Shown in pieces: positions 2,846 to 17,262 of a stretch of DNA of 64,000 bases. Below the pieces are notes generated by a model. The model saw only the letters and a list, made by a program, of their open reading frames with translations, ran no database searches and was not told the origin of the DNA. The DNA lies in NCBI GenBank assembly GCA_903838675.1, contig CAILZI010000234.1, positions 1-64,000 of the forward strand, read 5' to 3'. Every line of letters begins with the position of its first letter. Position 1 is the stretch's first letter. The DNA is from an uncultured Verrucomicrobiota bacterium (GTDB lineage: Bacteria > Verrucomicrobiota > Verrucomicrobiia > Verrucomicrobiales > Verrucomicrobiaceae). The position numbers and the translations under genes were made by a program.

Positions 2846-4168
2846 TCACTTTGCCGCCAGCGCCTTCTTCCACGCCGACGGTGCGCCGGGCAGTGTCTCA
2901 GCGAGGATGCGGCGGATGTGGCCGCGTTCAGTTTCGCTGAGGTAGGTGAACTGGCCGGTGGTGTCCTTGCCATCGAGGATGGTCCAAAGACGGTTAAGAA
3001 CGGTTTGCTTCAGCGGGGCGGTGAGGTGCTGGAAGGTGAGGGAATAGACCATGTAGCTGCAACGGTACTTGAAGAGACGGTGCAGGAGCTGGAAGTCCTT
3101 GAGGCTGCGCCCATCACTGCTTTGTGGGGCGCGTTTGGTGAAGGCGGTCTGGAAGGCGGGATCGCCCTCGATGCCACCGTCTGGCAGCACGGCCTCGTCT
3201 TTGAAGAGCAGAGCTTCGACGACGTCCTCAGCAGAATGATCGATGATGCGGCGCGCGGTGCCGGTGGGTTCGCTCATGACAGTTTCGCCCAGTTCACGCT
3301 GAAGGCTGGTCTGCATGTGCATGGCGCGCAGGGAGGCTTGATTTGCCTTGGTGAGAATGTTTTGCACGCTGGTCTGATGCTCCAGCACCATGAGGGCGAC
3401 GATGTCGCTCTGCTTGCGCTTGTAAGGGGCGACATCGAAAAATTTGGAGAGGTCGGTGACATTGGCTCCAGCGGTGAAGTCGATTTTGATGGTCTGGTCG
3501 TTTTTCTCGGTGGCAGTGACGTTGCCACGATGCAGGACGCTGCCGTGCCTGCCGGTGACGTACCAGCCGCCCCAGCGGTCAGTGAATGGGGTCGCGGTAT
3601 CGACGACGGTGCTGCCCTGGCTCATGATTGGATGTCCTTCAGGGCCAGGATAAACGGAGCGCACGATGACGCCAGGGACTTCGGGCGTGAAGGGGCCGCC
3701 GTGGCAGCTCAGGCAGCTATTGTCCCGCTGAAAGTGCAAGGGCTTGGCGGGCTCCTCATTGGGATCAAGCAGGTAGAAGATGGGGCCGAGCTTTGGGTCG
3801 ATGGTGGCAACTTCAATTGAACCGCCAAGGCAGTAGCCAACATAGGCGTCGTCACCGAAATAGACCACGCGTGGTGTCTGAGGGCTGATGCGGTCGTTCT
3901 GCTTGCTGGTCTTGGAGAAGACCATGACCTGCGACTCCTGCGGGATGTCGAACTGCTTCATTACATCGCGCAAAACGGTCCAGGCATCGGTTCGGTCGAT
4001 TTTGACTTTGCCTGCGGTCATGAGACTTTCGAGACGCTGAGCGGCGTCGTTGGGAGTTGTGTCGGAATAGCGAATAGGGGCGTTCTCGTATTCGTCCTCG
4101 GCATGAAGCGTGAGGAGTGACGAGGCCAAAACGGCGAGGCTCAACCGCCCTAAGGAGGCGTATCGCAT
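2846..4168 (-). CDS. Exported monoheme c-type protein of unknown function
   Basis: A 440-aa protein from the ATG at 4166-4168, which places a canonical signal peptide (basic n-region, hydrophobic core, LHA cleavage) at the N-terminus. A second ATG at 4193-4195 would add 9 residues. One covalent heme-binding motif, CLSCH, sits near residue 150. It is followed by a GGPFTPEVPG stretch and a WGGWYVTGRHG stretch, which I recall from uncharacterised planctomycete/verrucomicrobial heme proteins. No other CxxCH is present. The gene starts about 55 bp downstream of an NsrR-like regulator on the same strand, suggesting an NO- or nitrite-related role. That is an inference; no enzyme activity can be assigned. 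Confidence 0.7.
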   Translation of the reverse strand: MRYASLGRLSLAVLASSLLTLHAEDEYENAPIRYSDTTPNDAAQRLESLMTAGKVKIDRTDAWTVLRDVMKQFDIPQESQVMVFSKTSKQNDRISPQTPRVVYFGDDAYVGYCLGGSIEVATIDPKLGPIFYLLDPNEEPAKPLHFQRDNSCLSCHGGPFTPEVPGVIVRSVYPGPEGHPIMSQGSTVVDTATPFTDRWGGWYVTGRHGSVLHRGNVTATEKNDQTIKIDFTAGANVTDLSKFFDVAPYKRKQSDIVALMVLEHQTSVQNILTKANQASLRAMHMQTSLQRELGETVMSEPTGTARRIIDHSAEDVVEALLFKDEAVLPDGGIEGDPAFQTAFTKRAPQSSDGRSLKDFQLLHRLFKYRCSYMVYSLTFQHLTAPLKQTVLNRLWTILDGKDTTGQFTYLSETERGHIRRILAETLPGAPSAWKKALAAK

Positions 4169-4223
4169 GGAAGCATTGAAATAATGGGAGGTCATGGCTG
4201 GTAAATTCAGCGTTCGGGTTGCG

Positions 4224-4664
4224 TCATTGCTGCGGCAGCAGCTTCTCCTTGATGCTTTTTCCTGCGGCACCACTGACGAGGTCGCGTAGTGAGTGGCGGT
4301 CGAGAGTTTCATAAAAAGCGTTCACGGCCTGGGCGAGCGCTCCTTTGAGCCGGCAGGAGCCGTTGATGGGGCAGGTGTTGTGCTGCTTGTCGAAACACTC
4401 GACGATGTAAGGCGTGTCCTCGGTGCGGCGCACGACCATGCCGATGCGGATGTCCTCCGGTGGCATGCCCAAGGCGATGCCACCACCTCTGCCACGGCGG
4501 GTTTCGAGGTAACCAAGCTTGGCGAGGAAGTTCACCACCTTCACCAGATGGTGCCGAGAGATGTCGTAAGCTTCAGCGACTTCACTGAGGGAAAACGTTT
4601 CTCCCTTCAGCGCGGCAAACATGAGAACGCGCAGGGAATAATCGGAGAAGAGACTGAGTCGCAT
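4224..4664 (-). CDS. nsrR: Rrf2-family transcriptional regulator, NsrR-like (Fe-S, NO-sensing)
   Basis: A 146-aa winged-helix regulator. The N-terminus (FSDYSLRVLMF), a helix-turn-helix (about 27-50, with SRHHLVKVVNFL) and the wing segment RGRGGGI match the Rrf2/NsrR pattern. The three cluster-binding cysteines are present as C-x7-C-x5-C, followed by CRLKGALAQAV, close to known NsrR proteins, where they bind an Fe-S cluster that is destroyed by nitric oxide. A 29-bp palindrome just upstream (4689-4717) is a likely autoregulatory operator. The gene is followed by the monoheme protein gene. Assignment to NsrR rather than IscR or RsrR rests on the cysteine spacing and flanking residues. Confidence 0.82.
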   Translation of the reverse strand: MRLSLFSDYSLRVLMFAALKGETFSLSEVAEAYDISRHHLVKVVNFLAKLGYLETRRGRGGGIALGMPPEDIRIGMVVRRTEDTPYIVECFDKQHNTCPINGSCRLKGALAQAVNAFYETLDRHSLRDLVSGAAGKSIKEKLLPQQ

Positions 4665-4688
4665 GCCTCGATTTACGAGGGCATGGAG

Positions 4689-4717
4689 TTAAACTTGCAC
4701 CCGGCGTGCATGTTTAA
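4689..4717. promoter_or_regulatory. Palindromic operator candidate upstream of the NsrR-like gene
   Basis: The arms TTAAACTTGCAC (4689-4700) and GTGCATGTTTAA (4706-4717) are complementary at 11 of 12 positions around a 5-bp CCGGC spacer. The site ends 25 bp before the regulator start codon, so a bound protein would block transcription initiation. Rrf2 proteins are dimers that bind such inverted repeats. The repeat is seen directly; its use by this regulator is inferred. Confidence 0.6.
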
Positions 4718-4770
4718 ACAAGCTGCACCAAGACAAGCACACTGGCAGACAAATTTGGCACAATGCAGCC

Positions 4771-4802
4771 ACAAAAAAGCCCGGAGAGAATATCTCCGGG
4801 CT
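4771..4802 (-). terminator. Intrinsic terminator of the Cys-rich lipoprotein gene
   Basis: A perfect 10-bp GC-rich stem (4778-4787 with 4793-4802) and a 5-nt loop. On the minus strand it is followed by a run of six T. It begins 24 bp after the stop of the gene at 4826-5011. Confidence 0.85.
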
Positions 4803-4825
4803 TTGGCAAATTAGCTTGTCTTATG

Positions 4826-5011
4826 TTACTTCTTCTTGGCAGGGGCGGCATGGCTGTGGCCGGTGCTGGAGCAGCAGGAGGCACTTGAGCTGGCGCCGGT
4901 GGCGCAGCAGGAGGAGGCCGCTTTTTTCTTCGCGAAGATGCAATGGCCATTGGCGCAGCTGCTCAGCAGGAGGCTGGAGGAGACGAGAGCAAGAGTGAGA
5001 AGTGATTTCAT
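4826..5011 (-). CDS. Very small cysteine-rich lipoprotein
   Basis: A 61-aa protein from the ATG at 5009-5011. The signal peptide ends in a lipobox-like LSSC (Cys19). The 42-residue mature part has Cys at 19, 24, 35, 36, 46 and 47, His at 23, 52 and 54, and lysine clusters, including a KKK end. The CC pairs plus the HSH motif suggest metal or thiol chemistry, but no known family is recognised. It has its own strong terminator and so is probably monocistronic. The open frame continues upstream, but the chosen ATG is the only one that gives a signal peptide. Confidence 0.6.
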   Translation of the reverse strand: MKSLLTLALVSSSLLLSSCANGHCIFAKKKAASSCCATGASSSASCCSSTGHSHAAPAKKK

Positions 5012-5154
5012 AGTGTGTGGTGTGTGTGTCTGGAGGCTGGCAAAGGCCTTATGGCCTGCGCGCAGCATTAAGAGGTTTAATCAAACGAGTTATTTCATGC
5101 AATCTCAAGAATAAATGCGAATTCGCTGAGATCTTGATTCCGAATTCCGGGCAT

Positions 5155-5185
5155 GAAAAAGCCCGAAAGGGTCGCTTTCGGGCTT
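5155..5185 (-). terminator. Intrinsic terminator of the small exported protein gene
   Basis: A perfect 11-bp stem (5159-5169 with 5175-5185) and a 5-nt loop, followed on the minus strand by TTTTT. It lies about 30 bp after the stop at 5215. Confidence 0.85.
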
Positions 5186-5214
5186 CAAAGGCGAACGGAT
5201 CACCTCACTGGAAA

Positions 5215-5469
5215 TCAGCCTTCCTTGAGGGATTCCACTTTCTTGTGGGAGCTGGTGGCGGTCACTTTCTTGCCGACGAGCTTGTCAGCGCCGGTGACGG
5301 CAGCGGTCAGGGTAAGCTTGACTTCTTTGCCGCCGGATTCGATCACGATGGACTTGGAGTCAGCATCAACGGACTTGAGCGTGCCGTTGGTGGTGTCGAT
5401 TTTGCCGCAGCCTGCGAATGCGGACACGGAAAGGCCGAGGACGGCGAGGGTGGTGAGGATGGATTTCAT
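5215..5469 (-). CDS. Small exported protein of unknown function
   Basis: An 84-aa protein from the ATG at 5467-5469. The signal peptide has a hydrophobic core at about 5-18 and a likely cleavage after AFA. The mature domain of about 65 residues is rich in Thr, Val, Lys and Ser and looks like a small all-beta fold (segments NGTLKSVDADSKSIVIES and GKKVTATSSH). I recognise no enzyme motif. It might be an OB- or SH3-like periplasmic domain, but that is a guess. Its layout mirrors the neighbouring Cys-rich gene: a short exported product with its own terminator. Confidence 0.65.
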   Translation of the reverse strand: MKSILTTLAVLGLSVSAFAGCGKIDTTNGTLKSVDADSKSIVIESGGKEVKLTLTAAVTGADKLVGKKVTATSSHKKVESLKEG

Positions 5470-5621
5470 GTTAAGTTTGAGTGAGGTTAGCTTTCCGTCA
5501 GGAAGTGACCGAGCGGATTTGCGTGCATTCAAAACGAAAGAAGTCCCCCCTGCCAATCAAAAAATGTGGGGTTTTTGAAAAAAGCTCGTCACATGGAGCT
5601 TGCCTGTGCCACGCTGGCAGG

Positions 5622-6362
5622 ATGAAAAACACGGCCCCCAGCCTCTGCTTGCTCGCCATCATGGCGTTTATAGTCCCCTGCCTGGCGCATCCGCTGCCGG
5701 ATGTGGCGGTACGGGCCCATTTTGAGAAAAACGGGGACTGGATGCTCCAGGTGGAGATCGACCCCCGCAGCTTCCAGCCCGACCCCAACGTGGCACCCTA
5801 CCTCACCAACGCCGATCTGGGCGTCACGCCAGCAGAGCAGCAGGAAAAACTCAAGGCCGCTGCCCGTGAGTATGTGCAGAAGGTGGTCGAGGTAGTCCTG
5901 GATCCCGTGGTGGAGGTAAAGCCCGACCTCACATGGGAGTTTACTGCGGCAGAAAATGCTCCGCTGAAACTGCCGGAAGACCCGGTCATGCTCACAGGCA
6001 CCTGGCGTACGAAGCTTCCTGCCGGTAGCACCGGTTACTCGATCAAGGCCCTGCCGACGGGGACACTGAGCGTGCTGTATCACAACACGGCTCTGGGCAA
6101 GAAAGTGGAGCGCTACCAAATCCTCTTTCCCGGTGAAACGAGTTACGTGCTGGATTTGATAACCTTCACCCCGCGCACCAAAGCTCCGCCACCCATCACT
6201 GCGGAATCCTTGGAAGCTGCAAATGCGGCTGCGGGCAGCCCTGATGCCATGTGTGCGTGGTGCGGAACTACTCCAGACAGAGGGTACATGCTGCCTACGT
6301 TGGCTGCTGTGACGGGCATTGTGGTGCTTGTCACCTGGCTGCGCAGGAAGCGGACGGCTTGA
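5622..6362 (+). CDS. Exported single-pass membrane protein of unknown function
   Basis: A 246-aa protein from the ATG at 5622. A signal peptide (about 1-23, cleavage after CLA) is followed by a periplasmic domain beginning HPLPDVAVRAHF, a short CAWC motif near residue 213, one C-terminal membrane helix (about 222-240) and a basic RRKR end that should stay in the cytoplasm. The N-terminal mature part recalls the extracytoplasmic domain of HupE/UreJ-like membrane proteins, but the similarity is faint. The closely placed cysteines could be redox-active. It stands apart from the murU-like gene by 45 bp on the same strand. Confidence 0.6.
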   Translation: MKNTAPSLCLLAIMAFIVPCLAHPLPDVAVRAHFEKNGDWMLQVEIDPRSFQPDPNVAPYLTNADLGVTPAEQQEKLKAAAREYVQKVVEVVLDPVVEVKPDLTWEFTAAENAPLKLPEDPVMLTGTWRTKLPAGSTGYSIKALPTGTLSVLYHNTALGKKVERYQILFPGETSYVLDLITFTPRTKAPPPITAESLEAANAAAGSPDAMCAWCGTTPDRGYMLPTLAAVTGIVVLVTWLRRKRTA

Positions 6363-11201: not shown

Positions 11202-11292
11202 ATTGTGGTTTTTCGAGTTTCCAAAAACTCTCCAAAAATATCCTCGCCGCTGCGGGGGGCGTGCTACTCTCAGGGCGAACCCACTGTTCGCC

Positions 11293-14200
11293 ATGAAAAC
11301 CTCCTTCAGCCTCGCGCTGCTGCCAGCCATGACGCTGGCGTTTGTTTTAGTCTTTGATCTTTCCCACGCGGCTCCGCCGAAAAGCCGTTCAGAACCGAAA
11401 ATGCCGCCGCAGCAGGAACTGCACGCGAAGATTTCCATCAATCCAGAGGAACTGGCACCGGAATCGACCATCGAAGTTGTGTTTCCAACGGCGATGGTGG
11501 CAAAAGATCAAATCGGCAAAAGTGCGACCACTTCGCCGCTCGTCGTCATACCGGAATTGACTGGCACCTTTGAGTGGACGAGCACCCGCAGCGGCCAGTT
11601 CCATCTCACACAGGCGCCAAAATTTGCCGCCAGCTATGAGTTCAAACTGCACGCGGGTCTGACGGATCTCGCCGTAAAACCTCTTGCGGCGGAAAAACTC
11701 GATTCGGTGAACAGCGCCCGTTTTCGCATCATCGACCAGCACCCACGCTGGTTCGACGACGATGCGCAGAATCGAACTCCGCGTTTCCTCTTCGAGTTCA
11801 ACGACAGCGTGATGCCTTCCGAGGTCGTCAAGCACATCAAGTTCGTCTCTGAATCATCGCCGCAGCCGGTCGCTGCCAAGATCCGTCACGCCACGGGCAA
11901 GGATTTCACCCGCATGGGCACCGAGCCGCAGGCGACCTGGGCGGAGGAAATCTCCAAGGTGAAACCGTCTGTGGGAGATGATGCGGCCCGACTTAGCGCC
12001 ATCATCATCGAGCCCGAAACACAGCTGGCCATTGGCAAATGGCGCCTCACCATCGCGGAAACACTCAGTAACGCTTCTGGCATTAATCAGATTGCCACGG
12101 GCGACGACATCCAGCTCGGCGAGATCAAACCGTTCGAGGTGAGCGAAGTCGAGGCACATACGCCGTTCGACAGCGACTACTACATTGATGTCGATTTCAA
12201 CAAGCGCCTCCTGCCGTCGACGAGTGATGAAATGACGCAGGAAATGAAGGATGCCTTTGCACAGAAACTCGCACCTTTTGTCACCATCCGCCGGACTTCA
12301 CTGGGCCAGAAGCTGGCTGCAGTGGTTAACAAAGATGAAGGTCCGATGACGGGGCTCAAGGTCGAGATTATCGGTCGTACGCTGCGTTTCACCGGGCCAT
12401 TTGAGGTGAACAAGAAGTACACCGTCACGGTCGATATGGCGATGACTTCAGGAGACAACCTACCCTTGCAGGCGAACTACAAAAATGAAGTCACATTCAT
12501 TCCAAATCCCCCCTATCTCGCCGCGCCAACTTTCATCAACGCACAGCTCGCGAAAGGCACTGCCAATTATGAATTCAGCGCTGCAAATGTGAGCCAGGTG
12601 CGGGTGAGGGCGAAGCGTCTCAACGGTCCCGAACTGCTCAAAGCACTCGATCAATACCGTGCTTACCGCACCGCCTACTACGGCAACGACAAACAAAAGG
12701 CTGCCTACAAGATGCAGTTGATCGACAGCTACCCTGGCACGCAGGTGTTTGACCGCAGCTTTCCGGTGAACAAGCCGCTCGACCACAGCGAGATCCTGAA
12801 GCTGAACTGGCGTGAAGTGCTTGGTGATTTCCCGGCTGCACCTCTGTTCATTGAACTTGAAGGCACGGCCTCTGCGGGGCTTGAGCAGAAAGGTGTCATC
12901 ACCCAGACGCTCGTGCAGTTCACCGACCTGGGCATCATGCAAAAGAGCAATGGTCGCGAGTCGATGATCTTCGTGACTTCGTTGGAGACAGGCAGGCCGG
13001 TTTCCAGTGTGCGTCTCACTCTCGTTGACAACGATTTGAAACTCATCGGCTATGGCGACACCGACGCCAGCGGAATCGCAACCGCGCCGGGTGCCACGCC
13101 AGCGTTCGTGCTTGCTGAAAAGAATGGCGACTGCGCCGTCATCGAGTGCAGCGACAGCGGCATCAACATTCCCTACGACATCTCTCAGGCTTATGAAAAT
13201 GTCTGGCAGCCGCAGCGGCGCACCTTTGTTTTTTCCGACCGTCCGCTCTACAAGCCCGGTGACACCGCGCATTTCAAGGCGCACACCCGCCTGCTTGTCG
13301 GAGACGATTTGAGCCTTGATCAAGCGCCTGCACAGGGGCGTCTGTTGATCCGAGACCCGCGCTACCGCATCGTCGTCGACAAGCCGGTGACATTCACTGC
13401 CAGCGGCGCCTGGGCAGATGATGTGGTGCTGCCGACCGGCCCTGCGGGCTGGTATGATCTCTCAATCAATCTCAAAACGGCCAATTCGAACAGCCAGAGT
13501 GAAGCAGGCGGCAGCATGACTTTCCGCATCGATGACTACAAGCCAAACACCTTTGAAGTGAAGCTCGACGCCAAGACTCTCAAGTTTCAGCCAGACCGCA
13601 TCCACCTGCCGCTCAGTGCGAACTACTATATGGGGAAGGCGCTTTCCGTCGCCAAGGTGCAGTGGAGCGCGAACTCGCAGCGTGACTACGAGGCGCCGCA
13701 GGCCTACAGCCAGTATCACTTTGGTGAAGCACCTTTGTGGTCGCATTATGCGCAGGATCGGGATGCCGATGGTGATTATGCCGGACATGGCAATGACGAG
13801 GTGGAGAATGAGTGGTTCGTGAATGGCAATCTCTTCCTGGCGGAAGACGGCACCGCCACACTCGAAATGCCGAGGCCGCCGCCAGACCGTGCTGCGCTGC
13901 CGCAGCGTGTGCGGGTGAACGCAGAAGTCACCGACATCAACGAGCAGACCATCAGTTCCTCCGCCGAGTTTGAAGTGCCTGGCGCAGATTTCCTGCTTGG
14001 CCTCAAAGGTCCGGATTATTTTGGCACCGCCGGCAAAGCCCTGCAGCTCGAGGTCGTTGCGATTGATTCCAAGGGCGCGCCCGCCGCAGGCAATGTGCAT
14101 GTAGATCTCAAAGTCGAACGCCAGGAGTACCACACACTCAAAATCGCCACTGCTGGTGGCGGATCAACGACCAAGGATCAGGTCATCCTGCGTGAAGAAT

Positions 14201-17200
14201 TGAAGCAGAGTTTCGATTTGAAAGCCGCCACCGCAGGTTCGGCACCCTCGGTCACCGTTCCATTCACTCCTGCAGGCGGCGGTGTCTATTTCCTCACAGC
14301 CGAGGCGGTGGATGCCAAAGGCACAAAGGTGCTCTCCCGCATGGCATTCTATGCTGTTGGAGGCAATGAATTCCCATGGGCGATGGAGGATGGAAACCGA
14401 ATGAACCTCCAGCCAGAGAAAACCAAACTCAAGCCCGGGGAGGATGCGGTCATCGTGGTCAAAACTCCGATCGCCGGAACTGCGCTCGTCACCGTGGAAC
14501 GCAACAGGCTGCATCGTCAGTTTGTGACCGAACTCACACTCGAAAACCCGATTATTCGCTTGCCGCTCGGTGAAGATGAGTTTCCCAATGTATTCGTTTC
14601 TGTCATCGTTATTCGTGGTTCTGCGGCGAGCACCAAGCAGCACAAGATGCCGGAGTATCGCGTCGGCTACTGCGCTCTCACCGTTGAGTCGGACGTGAAA
14701 GAGTTGAAACTCGCAGTGAAGCCGGATCATGATGAAGTGCGTCCTGCAGAAGAGGTGAAGATCACCACAACGATCACTGATGCCAAAGGGGCTGCCGTGT
14801 CAGGTGCTGATGTGACACTTTACGCCGTCGATGAAGGCGTGCTGAGTCTCATGAAGCATGAGACGCCTGATCCTTCCGCGTATTTCCATGCCGAACTGCC
14901 GCTCGCGGTCGACAGCTTCACCTCCTTTGACAATCTGTTGTCTGAAGAAGCTGCGGCTCGTGATCGTGGCAACAAAGGGTTCGTTGTCGGAGGTGGTGAT
15001 GGAGATGGCAACGGGCCGAACGCGAACATTCGTAAAAACTTCATCGTCACACCGCTATGGCTTGCGTCAGGCACCACGGATGCGCAGGGCAGCCTGACCG
15101 CCAACGTCACCGCACCGGACAATCTCACGCGCTATCGTATCATGGCCGTGGCAGCACATGGCGTTGATCGTTTCGGCAAAGGGGAATCCGCCTTCAAGAT
15201 CAACAAGCCTCTCATGGTCGAGCCCGCTGTACCGCGTTTCGCCCGCCTGGGAGATGAATTCCTGGTGAAGGCTGTCGTTCACAACACCACGCCCGATGCC
15301 GGTGCAGTGGAGGTCACGCTGGAACTGGATGTCACGGCAAACTTCATTCAGGAGAAGCGAGATTTTGTTCCCGCTTCTCTAAAAGCCGATACTGGTGGCA
15401 GCGCCAAGCTGCAGAAAATCATCCTGCAGATCAAAGCCGGTGAGACCGCGGCCACCGCTTTTCCAGTACAGTTTGTGCAACTGGGCACCGCAAAATGGAA
15501 ATGGACCGCACGTGGCGTGAACTGGCCCGTGGCAGCCAGTGACGGAACCGAATCGACCTTTGAAGTCAATCATCCCGTGCCCGAGCTGCGGTATGTGAGC
15601 TACACGCGTCTCAAGTCCGATGAACCGAACGAGAATCTCATCAAGGACGTGAACCCAGCGCTGCTCGAAGGCGAAGGCTCGCTTTCACTGGGCATCAGCA
15701 ACAGCCGCCTCTATGAGGCACGCGATGCGCTTGATTACCTGCTGCACTATCCCTATGGCTGCGTCGAGCAGACGACTTCTGCCACGATGCCCTGGCTCGC
15801 CCTCGGCAGATACGAGCCGCTGTTTCCAGATCAACTCGGTGGTGGCAAGGCGAAGCAGGTCGTTCAGGCCGGTGTCGACAAGCTTCTGCAGATGACCACG
15901 GATGAAGGCGGCCTGGCCTACTGGCCCGGCGGCACCGAGTCCAGCTTCTGGGGCAGCGCCTACGGCGGATTGCTGCTGCTGCGCGCCCGCGATCAAGGTG
16001 CGGACGTTCCTGCGGATGCGATCAACAAGCTCGTCGAATTCCTCTCGAAAAAGCTACGTGGTCTCGATGAGGAAAAAGACCTCTTTAACATCACCGATTC
16101 CGCTTTGGCACTGTATACTCTGGCGAAGGCTGGCAAACCTGAGCCTGCGTATCAGAACCTGCTATTCGGCAAACGCGAGCATCTGCCTGAAATCGCGAAA
16201 CTCTACCTCGCGCTTTCGATGTGCCTGAGCAACGCACCCGAGCAGCAGATCAAGGACACGCTTGGCTGGAGGCCTACTGAGCATCCCGCTCCGGCAAAGG
16301 CCGACATCAAGAGCAAGACTGCCAAAACAGAAACCAAGGCCAAGGCGCCACCCGCGCCAGCACCGCACCCTGTGGTCTGGAGCCACTGGGCTGGCAATGG
16401 TGCAAACAAGGCGTTGCGCTTGATCTGTTACACGCATCTCGGCCTTACCGAAGACGCCGAACATCTGGCAGTGTCAATTCTGCAATCCCGCAATGGGAAG
16501 GGCGAATGGGGCAACACTTTCACCAATGCCTGGACGCTGACTGCCTTGGCCGCCTACGAGCGCAGCTTGAAGAAGGTGGGCGAGCCTCTCGCGGCGACGG
16601 GGCATTGGGACACCCAGGCCGTGCCGCTCAATCTCGCTGACGGATTCTCAAGCACACATGTGAACTTTGCGCTCAATCAGGCGCTCAGTGCGAAGCCGCT
16701 CAGCGTCGAACTTCCCGCTGGCCGTGAAATTTACGGTCGCATTGAAGCCCGGAGCTTCCCGCCACAGCGCGAATTCGCCGGTGAGAACAAGGGTTACGCC
16801 ATCGAGCGCAGCTACGAAGAACTGAACATGGACGGATCCACCTCCGGAACCGACGACCTCCGCGTGGGTGACATGGTGGTTGTCACTCTCAAGATCGAGA
16901 TTGGCGGCGGAGATAGTTACCTCGCCATCGACGATGCGCTTCCAGCCGTCTTTGAAGCCATCAATCCCGAGTTTGGCACTCAGAGCGAACGCGAAGGCGA
17001 GCAACTGCCCGACGGCACGCAGCAATGGTTCTGTGACCACCGTGAAATCCGCACCGACCGCGCCCTGTTCTTCACCGATTTTGCTCCAGCTAAAGGCAAA
17101 TTCAGCCTCCAATACCTTGCCCGCGTCATCGCCGAAGGCGACACCATTGCTCCGCCTGCGAAAATCGAAGCCATGTACCAACCTGATAAATATGGGCTCA

Positions 17201-17262
17201 GCCCAACACAACGCATTCGCACTTTGCCTTCTGGCAATACGAAAGTTGCGGAAGTGAAGTGA
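11293..17262 (+). CDS. Bacterial alpha-2-macroglobulin (protease-trap) with intact thioester motif
   Basis: A 1989-aa secreted protein from the ATG at 11293, with a signal peptide of about 28 residues and no lipobox. Tandem macroglobulin (MG) domains fill the N-terminal half. The SDRPLYKPGDTAHFK segment is the classic A2M_N strand, and the complement-like C-terminal half carries the thioester motif GCVEQ with Cys1490 and Gln1493. The bait and thioester architecture traps proteases covalently in the periplasm or at the surface. A lysine/alanine/proline-rich insert near 1675-1700 interrupts the alpha/alpha-toroid region. Family members often sit beside pbpC (PBP1C); no such gene is present here. 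It starts 91 bp after dxr. Confidence 0.9.
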   Translation: MKTSFSLALLPAMTLAFVLVFDLSHAAPPKSRSEPKMPPQQELHAKISINPEELAPESTIEVVFPTAMVAKDQIGKSATTSPLVVIPELTGTFEWTSTRSGQFHLTQAPKFAASYEFKLHAGLTDLAVKPLAAEKLDSVNSARFRIIDQHPRWFDDDAQNRTPRFLFEFNDSVMPSEVVKHIKFVSESSPQPVAAKIRHATGKDFTRMGTEPQATWAEEISKVKPSVGDDAARLSAIIIEPETQLAIGKWRLTIAETLSNASGINQIATGDDIQLGEIKPFEVSEVEAHTPFDSDYYIDVDFNKRLLPSTSDEMTQEMKDAFAQKLAPFVTIRRTSLGQKLAAVVNKDEGPMTGLKVEIIGRTLRFTGPFEVNKKYTVTVDMAMTSGDNLPLQANYKNEVTFIPNPPYLAAPTFINAQLAKGTANYEFSAANVSQVRVRAKRLNGPELLKALDQYRAYRTAYYGNDKQKAAYKMQLIDSYPGTQVFDRSFPVNKPLDHSEILKLNWREVLGDFPAAPLFIELEGTASAGLEQKGVITQTLVQFTDLGIMQKSNGRESMIFVTSLETGRPVSSVRLTLVDNDLKLIGYGDTDASGIATAPGATPAFVLAEKNGDCAVIECSDSGINIPYDISQAYENVWQPQRRTFVFSDRPLYKPGDTAHFKAHTRLLVGDDLSLDQAPAQGRLLIRDPRYRIVVDKPVTFTASGAWADDVVLPTGPAGWYDLSINLKTANSNSQSEAGGSMTFRIDDYKPNTFEVKLDAKTLKFQPDRIHLPLSANYYMGKALSVAKVQWSANSQRDYEAPQAYSQYHFGEAPLWSHYAQDRDADGDYAGHGNDEVENEWFVNGNLFLAEDGTATLEMPRPPPDRAALPQRVRVNAEVTDINEQTISSSAEFEVPGADFLLGLKGPDYFGTAGKALQLEVVAIDSKGAPAAGNVHVDLKVERQEYHTLKIATAGGGSTTKDQVILREELKQSFDLKAATAGSAPSVTVPFTPAGGGVYFLTAEAVDAKGTKVLSRMAFYAVGGNEFPWAMEDGNRMNLQPEKTKLKPGEDAVIVVKTPIAGTALVTVERNRLHRQFVTELTLENPIIRLPLGEDEFPNVFVSVIVIRGSAASTKQHKMPEYRVGYCALTVESDVKELKLAVKPDHDEVRPAEEVKITTTITDAKGAAVSGADVTLYAVDEGVLSLMKHETPDPSAYFHAELPLAVDSFTSFDNLLSEEAAARDRGNKGFVVGGGDGDGNGPNANIRKNFIVTPLWLASGTTDAQGSLTANVTAPDNLTRYRIMAVAAHGVDRFGKGESAFKINKPLMVEPAVPRFARLGDEFLVKAVVHNTTPDAGAVEVTLELDVTANFIQEKRDFVPASLKADTGGSAKLQKIILQIKAGETAATAFPVQFVQLGTAKWKWTARGVNWPVAASDGTESTFEVNHPVPELRYVSYTRLKSDEPNENLIKDVNPALLEGEGSLSLGISNSRLYEARDALDYLLHYPYGCVEQTTSATMPWLALGRYEPLFPDQLGGGKAKQVVQAGVDKLLQMTTDEGGLAYWPGGTESSFWGSAYGGLLLLRARDQGADVPADAINKLVEFLSKKLRGLDEEKDLFNITDSALALYTLAKAGKPEPAYQNLLFGKREHLPEIAKLYLALSMCLSNAPEQQIKDTLGWRPTEHPAPAKADIKSKTAKTETKAKAPPAPAPHPVVWSHWAGNGANKALRLICYTHLGLTEDAEHLAVSILQSRNGKGEWGNTFTNAWTLTALAAYERSLKKVGEPLAATGHWDTQAVPLNLADGFSSTHVNFALNQALSAKPLSVELPAGREIYGRIEARSFPPQREFAGENKGYAIERSYEELNMDGSTSGTDDLRVGDMVVVTLKIEIGGGDSYLAIDDALPAVFEAINPEFGTQSEREGEQLPDGTQQWFCDHREIRTDRALFFTDFAPAKGKFSLQYLARVIAEGDTIAPPAKIEAMYQPDKYGLSPTQRIRTLPSGNTKVAEVK

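Follow-up and report, generated by a model that had tools for sequence, protein, structure and literature searches.

NsrR is a repressor that acts through an Fe-S cluster, and nitric oxide (NO) destroys this cluster. In the periplasm, cytochrome c' (CycP) and cytochrome c'-beta/P460 are monoheme proteins that bind NO, and NnrS, a heme-associated integral membrane protein, likewise belongs to NO regulons. The NsrR regulons of Proteobacteria and Gram-positives, as reconstructed by comparative genomics (PMC1274295), combine an Rrf2-family regulator carrying three cysteines with a box ATGyAT-N5-ATrCAT, in its longer form gATGyAT-(N5)-ATrCATc, and their targets include NnrS, NirK, globin-type NO detoxification and RIC/DnrN besides the usual core targets Hmp and Hcp; Verrucomicrobiota were not treated in that work.

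We describe here a locus from a relative of Prosthecobacter, lying in a window of 64,000 nucleotides, by which we mean the whole stretch of DNA that was analysed; the genus-mates of this host (genome size 7.1 Mb, assembly 93% complete) are called congeners, or the Prosthecobacter group, below. The locus resembles the described regulons in its three-cysteine Rrf2 protein, its box and the kinds of gene that carry the same site elsewhere, RIC appearing as a neighbour of the partner gene in other lineages. It differs from them in that Hmp and Hcp were not seen here and that the operon partner is an exported monoheme protein without a known family. The regulator and its operator represent a known kind in a new lineage; the heme protein is uncharacterised at the level of its family. 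Our main reading, that of an autoregulated NsrR operon with a periplasmic NO-handling heme protein, has in our estimation a probability of about 0.7. A search of the open literature for NsrR in Verrucomicrobia or Planctomycetes, for Prosthecobacter and NO, and for the monoheme family returned no paper; publications beyond the open literature could exist. The features of the locus are as follows.

2846-4195, minus strand: exported monoheme protein, 449 aa (440 aa from the ATG at 4168), from the open reading frame, searches and a model
3377-3379, minus strand: codon of His273 (SDIVALMVLEHQ), one of the two invariant histidines outside CxxCH
3530-3532, minus strand: codon of His222, the other of these two, invariant in 73 of 73 homologues and a candidate heme-pocket residue
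3701-3715, minus strand: CxxCH heme-attachment motif CLSCH, residues 161-165, invariant in 73 homologues
4224-4664, minus strand: nsrR, Rrf2-family regulator of 146 aa, from Pfam, NCBIfam, PDB and an alignment of relatives
4689-4717, minus strand: predicted NsrR-type operator, TTAAACATGCAC-N5-GTGCAAGTTTAA, with core ATGCAC-N5-GTGCAA
4772-4805 (about), minus strand: terminator-like hairpin with a T-run, read from the sequence

The regulator and its operator

The product of nsrR matches Pfam Rrf2 at 4.5e-32, above the cut-off, and carries D8 together with C90-x7-C98-x5-C104, so that the earlier note was right to see an Rrf2 gene with a C-x7-C-x5-C pattern. D8 and the three cysteines, which we take for the cluster ligands of Streptomyces NsrR, are kept in every aligned nsrR copy linked to a monoheme gene. 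The top match of the regulator in a search of PDB sequences, at 2.6e-22, is the NsrR of Streptomyces coelicolor (5n07); this closest solved relative aligns with it at D8 and at the cysteine positions, but its spacing is C-x5-C-x5-C as compared to C-x7-C-x5-C in the window. The top NCBIfam model is that of E. coli NsrR, and because its score of 120 bits is below the 182-bit equivalog cut-off, which is a naming threshold and no biological property, we call the regulator NsrR-type rather than a curated equivalog.

The inverted repeat upstream of this gene reads TTAAACATGCAC-GCCGG-GTGCAAGTTTAA on the minus strand, 29 bp in all (TTAAACATGCACGCCGGGTGCAAGTTTAA); it was recovered at exactly 4689-4717, its arms pairing at 11 of 12 positions as the earlier note had it, with one extra pair within the spacer. 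That note placed it 25 bp before the Rrf2 gene; the repeat does stand upstream, but by its coordinates the gap to the ATG (4664) is 24 bp. The core ATGCAC-N5-GTGCAA is like the published consensus in its half-sites and its 5-bp spacer (PMC1274295), and the operator matches the NsrR-box pattern perfectly on one strand. With up to 3 mismatches, shuffling predicts 0.34 occurrences of the pattern in the window, and the one place found is the operator; with up to 2 mismatches it occurs at 2 places in the 7.1-Mb host genome, the operator and one other, and a reversed control pattern occurs there at 0 places. The 150 bp upstream of the window's nsrR score higher than all of 500 dinucleotide shuffles.

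The operator also precedes nsrR in 18 congeners. In an alignment of 17 upstream regions, the window included, AAA-ATGCA and TGCAAGT are invariant while spacer and flanks drift, and the operator is the best-conserved block. Outside the genus, where the 150 bp upstream of nsrR were likewise scored against dinucleotide shuffles, a related palindrome was found in other genera and families at nsrR genes near a monoheme gene (p 0.002-0.008 in L157, L163, L179, L182, L184 and L051; p 0.034 in L168). Three near relatives of greater divergence split: L135 and L140 have an upstream palindrome (both p 0.002), and L139 fails the test. In several genomes where nsrR stands away from the monoheme gene (G018, G033, G041, G042; L102-L104, L107, L110), the shuffle test gave no significant upstream site. 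The palindrome is therefore conserved across the genus at nsrR-monoheme pairs and recognisable in other families; the earlier note had named its absence near orthologous pairs as a refutation, and on this check the note's reading stood.

Both genes lie on the same strand, 28 bp apart and nsrR first. The hairpin at about 4772-4805, which most close congeners keep, ends the upstream gene (4826-5011) and so sets the nsrR-monoheme unit apart from it. The monoheme gene is very likely the operon partner of an autoregulated nsrR. The earlier note had joined regulator, palindrome and monoheme gene in one module; its parts were confirmed, order and site are conserved in relatives, and the three together are a genuine unit that evolution has conserved in Verrucomicrobiota.

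Two further genes of the window may be recorded. The gene at 4826-5011 (minus strand), directly upstream of the nsrR operon, encodes a short exported or lipoprotein-like protein (MKSLLTLALVSSSLLLSSCANGHC...) with many cysteines and a His/Lys end, for which no family was found; and a very large frame at 11203-17262 (plus strand, 2019 aa) is by appearance of the alpha-2-macroglobulin type.

Other genes that carry the site

In the host genome the second site, at C38:64617, overlaps with the start of a gene for a truncated globin, and NnrS follows without a gap. In all seven congeners examined (L087-L093) the same globin has the site, with NnrS next or a few genes on. The operon in L087 comprises the globin, a copper nitrite reductase (NirK; TIGR02376 above cut-off), a formylglycine-type/SCO protein (NirV-like) and NnrS, and an additional site on its other side faces an exported YHS-globin. 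This exported globin has paired sites in L100 and one site in L101, and shares a palindrome with a divergent nsrR in L098 and L099; the globin labels YHS and group III are our reading of the sequences, and Pfam confirms Bac_globin for the exported one. A diheme cytochrome c is preceded by the site as well, perfect in L094 and nearly so in L095. Sites were thus found, in the host and in congeners, both at nsrR itself and at NO genes, and the genes that bear them are what an NO regulator would control. Because its operator is NsrR-like and the other sites precede NO genes, the window's NsrR is very likely, judged from sequence, an NO regulator, and site and target evidence together extend the NsrR regulon to Verrucomicrobiota.

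Alternatively, the Rrf2 protein might sense iron, cysteine, redox state or nitrite, its motif being a generic Rrf2 site. The score below the NsrR equivalog cut-off would allow this, as would the nearly equal score of NCBIfam RirA (119 bits); the motif, however, is NsrR-like, D8 and the three cysteines match those of the solved NsrR, and the targets are globins, NnrS and NirK and not iron or sulfur genes, so we consider a signal other than NO highly improbable.

Several observations on these sites and genomes stand apart. The NsrR-type site at L037 4618-4642, like its counterparts in L087-L092, overlaps the start codon of the truncated globin or lies right against it, a position that would suit a leaderless or very short-leader transcript. 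The paired L100 sites, upstream of the exported YHS-globin, were also considered as an RNA gene, and Rfam gave no match. A second nsrR copy, 62% identical, lies divergent from an exported YHS-globin in L106 (G010:C250, 2597-5152), with another truncated globin nearby and a weak palindrome of its own, AAAGAAGCATAAACGATACTTCTTT. A COX III-like protein and small membrane proteins resembling NorE/NorF are encoded beside the exported YHS-globin in L101 (G024, 4297-6297), where the globin has an NsrR-type site and the genome is without a recognised NsrR. A PF00115 search of the host genome returned aa3- and cbb3-type oxidases and a ccoN-like third protein, and no clear NorB in this 93% complete assembly.

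The exported monoheme protein

The earlier note had placed an exported one-heme protein after the Rrf2 gene, and the sequence agrees with this: the protein has an N-terminal hydrophobic signal and a single CxxCH (residues 161-165), no transmembrane segment was detected besides the signal peptide, and the host genome holds cytochrome c assembly genes. Motif, export signal and assembly system are those of c-type cytochromes in general, and covalent heme attachment is predicted. Across 73 homologues the only invariant histidines are H165 (of CxxCH), H222 and H273, the last retained in distant paralogues too; R179, R207, W208, Y212, N225, E272 and Q274 are further invariant residues. If H222 or H273 served as a ligand, the heme could be six-coordinate.

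No family was recovered for the protein, either above the cut-off in Pfam or in NCBIfam, and PDB sequences gave no match. USP32_N, BamE and Elp3, which surfaced in the Pfam, NCBIfam, PHROGs and PDB searches, were sub-threshold and were set aside as chance matches. Pfam gave no convincing family for the 73 homologues, and no cytochrome family for any of them. The AlphaFold2 model (pLDDT 94.8, pTM 0.91) predicts a mixed alpha/beta protein with a C-terminal helical part, and the N-terminal half modelled alone reached pLDDT 82. Neither the whole model nor the N-terminal half gave a Foldseek match at E <= 0.001. The best hits of a second structure aligner, at Z about 6, were helical-repeat proteins; CNOT1, among these, was judged to share a common helical arrangement and not the fold. 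These search results are compatible with a modelled fold absent from solved structures, and are no proof of it.

Of the described proteins, cytochrome c' (CycP) and cytochrome c'-beta/P460 come closest, being exported, with one CxxCH heme and tied to NO defence, and we propose an analogous action. They are, however, four-helix bundles or small beta folds, as compared to the about 420 aa and predicted mixed alpha/beta architecture found here, where the CxxCH lies in mid-protein and none of the 73 homologues matches a cytochrome family. NnrS, also heme-associated and in NO regulons, has a gene that overlaps the monoheme gene in L054, but it is an integral membrane protein and unrelated in sequence.

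Distribution, gene neighbours and function

A monoheme orthologue occurs in 45 of 47 genomes of the Prosthecobacter group (the exceptions are G019, 68% complete, and G035) and a homologue in 24 of 288 other Verrucomicrobiota genomes drawn over the phylum. The homologue search, which reached Planctomycetota, gave at least 572 confirmed matches, of which the best 80 were kept; plasmid records held no homologue.

The immediate upstream and downstream genes at the non-Prosthecobacter loci among these 80 gave 109 proteins, called by a simple codon-usage script and with proteins of more than 900 aa left out. By Pfam they include, as the two commonest families, 8 Rrf2 proteins and 4 globins, followed by 3 protoglobins, 3 RIC (ScdA_N plus hemerythrin, confirmed by TIGR03652 above cut-off) and 2 NnrS. 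The control was 109 proteins 3-4 genes away in the same set of loci (L142-L192, without L186, whose compact NO cluster extends to the outer genes), and among its 25 top families none of those five reaches 2 members. The difference, 20 against 0, has a Fisher p of about 7e-7; the genomes are related, however, and their loci not independent, so that fewer separate events stand behind the neighbour counts than the figures suggest. One cluster in L051 unites NsrR, YHS-globin, monoheme protein, globin and NnrS. Several unrelated kinds of NO-linked gene thus adjoin the monoheme family in different lineages, and most monoheme homologues outside the genus have no adjoining NO gene. Two of the 8 Rrf2 neighbours, at the Planctomycetota loci L191 and L196, are not NsrR-like: tried as NsrR, they were without D8 and the cysteine pattern.

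It might be argued that nsrR and the monoheme gene are neighbours by accident, through the gene order of a single clade. Their linkage is lost in part of the genus, and in L111 (G013, 4901-5075) only about the first 41 codons of a decayed nsrR are recognisable beside an intact palindrome and monoheme gene, which is a snapshot of nsrR loss. The same order with palindromes of its own nevertheless recurs in other genera and families, and Rrf2 is the commonest neighbour family at the best 80 of at least 572 loci, which leaves an accident with hardly any credit.

We thus return to the reading of an NO-responsive operon, to which the other targets of the site and the neighbours of NsrR-free homologues (RIC, protoglobin, globins, NnrS), all of them NO genes, lend good support; the NO role that the earlier note had suggested for the monoheme protein has gained accordingly. 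The protein very probably represents, on this genomic evidence, a new component of bacterial NO defence, and we hold with considerable confidence that it belongs to the NO response. In the mechanism that we propose, NsrR with its Fe-S cluster would sit on the palindrome at its own promoter and keep both genes low; NO would attack the cluster, NsrR would leave the site, and NsrR and the monoheme protein would be made. The same NsrR would also control truncated globin and NnrS, which form a second unit at another place in the genome. The monoheme protein would be exported and carry one covalent heme at CxxCH, which would bind NO in the periplasm and most likely remove it, by reduction or oxidation, beyond the reach of cytosolic globins. 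A possible electron source would be the diheme cytochrome c, which in some relatives is encoded divergently next to it or belongs to the same regulon. NO removal as the activity is, we judge, slightly better than an even bet.

Alternatively, the monoheme protein might be no enzyme and serve as a periplasmic NO sensor or carrier that hands on the signal or NO. The invariant histidine pair and heme in a protein unlike known enzymes would suit such a role, and so would an operon shared with a regulator. However, no signalling partner is conserved, the protein shows no membrane-spanning segment apart from its signal peptide, NsrR is already the sensor, and the neighbours are detoxification proteins; we regard a sensor or carrier as distinctly unlikely.

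More general functions come into view where the monoheme gene outlives its regulator. In about a dozen congeners the gene is kept and no NsrR orthologue was found (intact, for example, in G002, G004, G006, G009, G037, G039, G044 and G045), so the pair is not obligate; either the protein is of use in the absence of NsrR, or its gene has passed to a different regulator. NnrS tends to vanish along with NsrR (co-occurrence in the genus 22/8/4/10, Fisher p 0.008, kinship ignored), but the monoheme gene does not. Because it is kept without NsrR, and because most homologues outside the genus have no adjoining NO gene, the protein may do more than serve the NO response. It could even be a periplasmic protein of general redox, electron-transfer or repair function, for instance a peroxidase or the donor of an oxidase, co-induced by NO as respiration is inhibited. 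Near-universality in the genus, also without NsrR and NnrS, speaks for this, as does the diheme cytochrome c gene that is transcribed away from nsrR-monoheme at four loci (L157, L158, L163 and L179). The neighbours enriched outside the genus, however, are unrelated kinds of NO gene and not oxidase or peroxidase genes, and we think a general redox role unlikely.

Removal of NO stays our preferred activity. If it is confirmed, two phyla that are abundant in soil, lake and wastewater habitats, where turnover of NO and N2O matters, would gain a further way of clearing NO in the periplasm, and these proteins would gain a first function open to testing. That the family founds a group of periplasmic NO-converting heme enzymes in Verrucomicrobiota and Planctomycetota, with a fold unlike solved structures, we put forward tentatively, at rather less than even odds. 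In any case a widespread uncharacterised family of heme proteins is now tied to NO.

A second, distant paralogue (about 32% identical) is present in most genomes of the genus, for example at L038 4616-5875 and G000:C222:9618-10793, and its neighbourhood in the host contains no NO-related genes. At three Planctomycetota loci (L192, L202 and L205) the gene just upstream of the monoheme homologue, in the same orientation, encodes a protoglobin.
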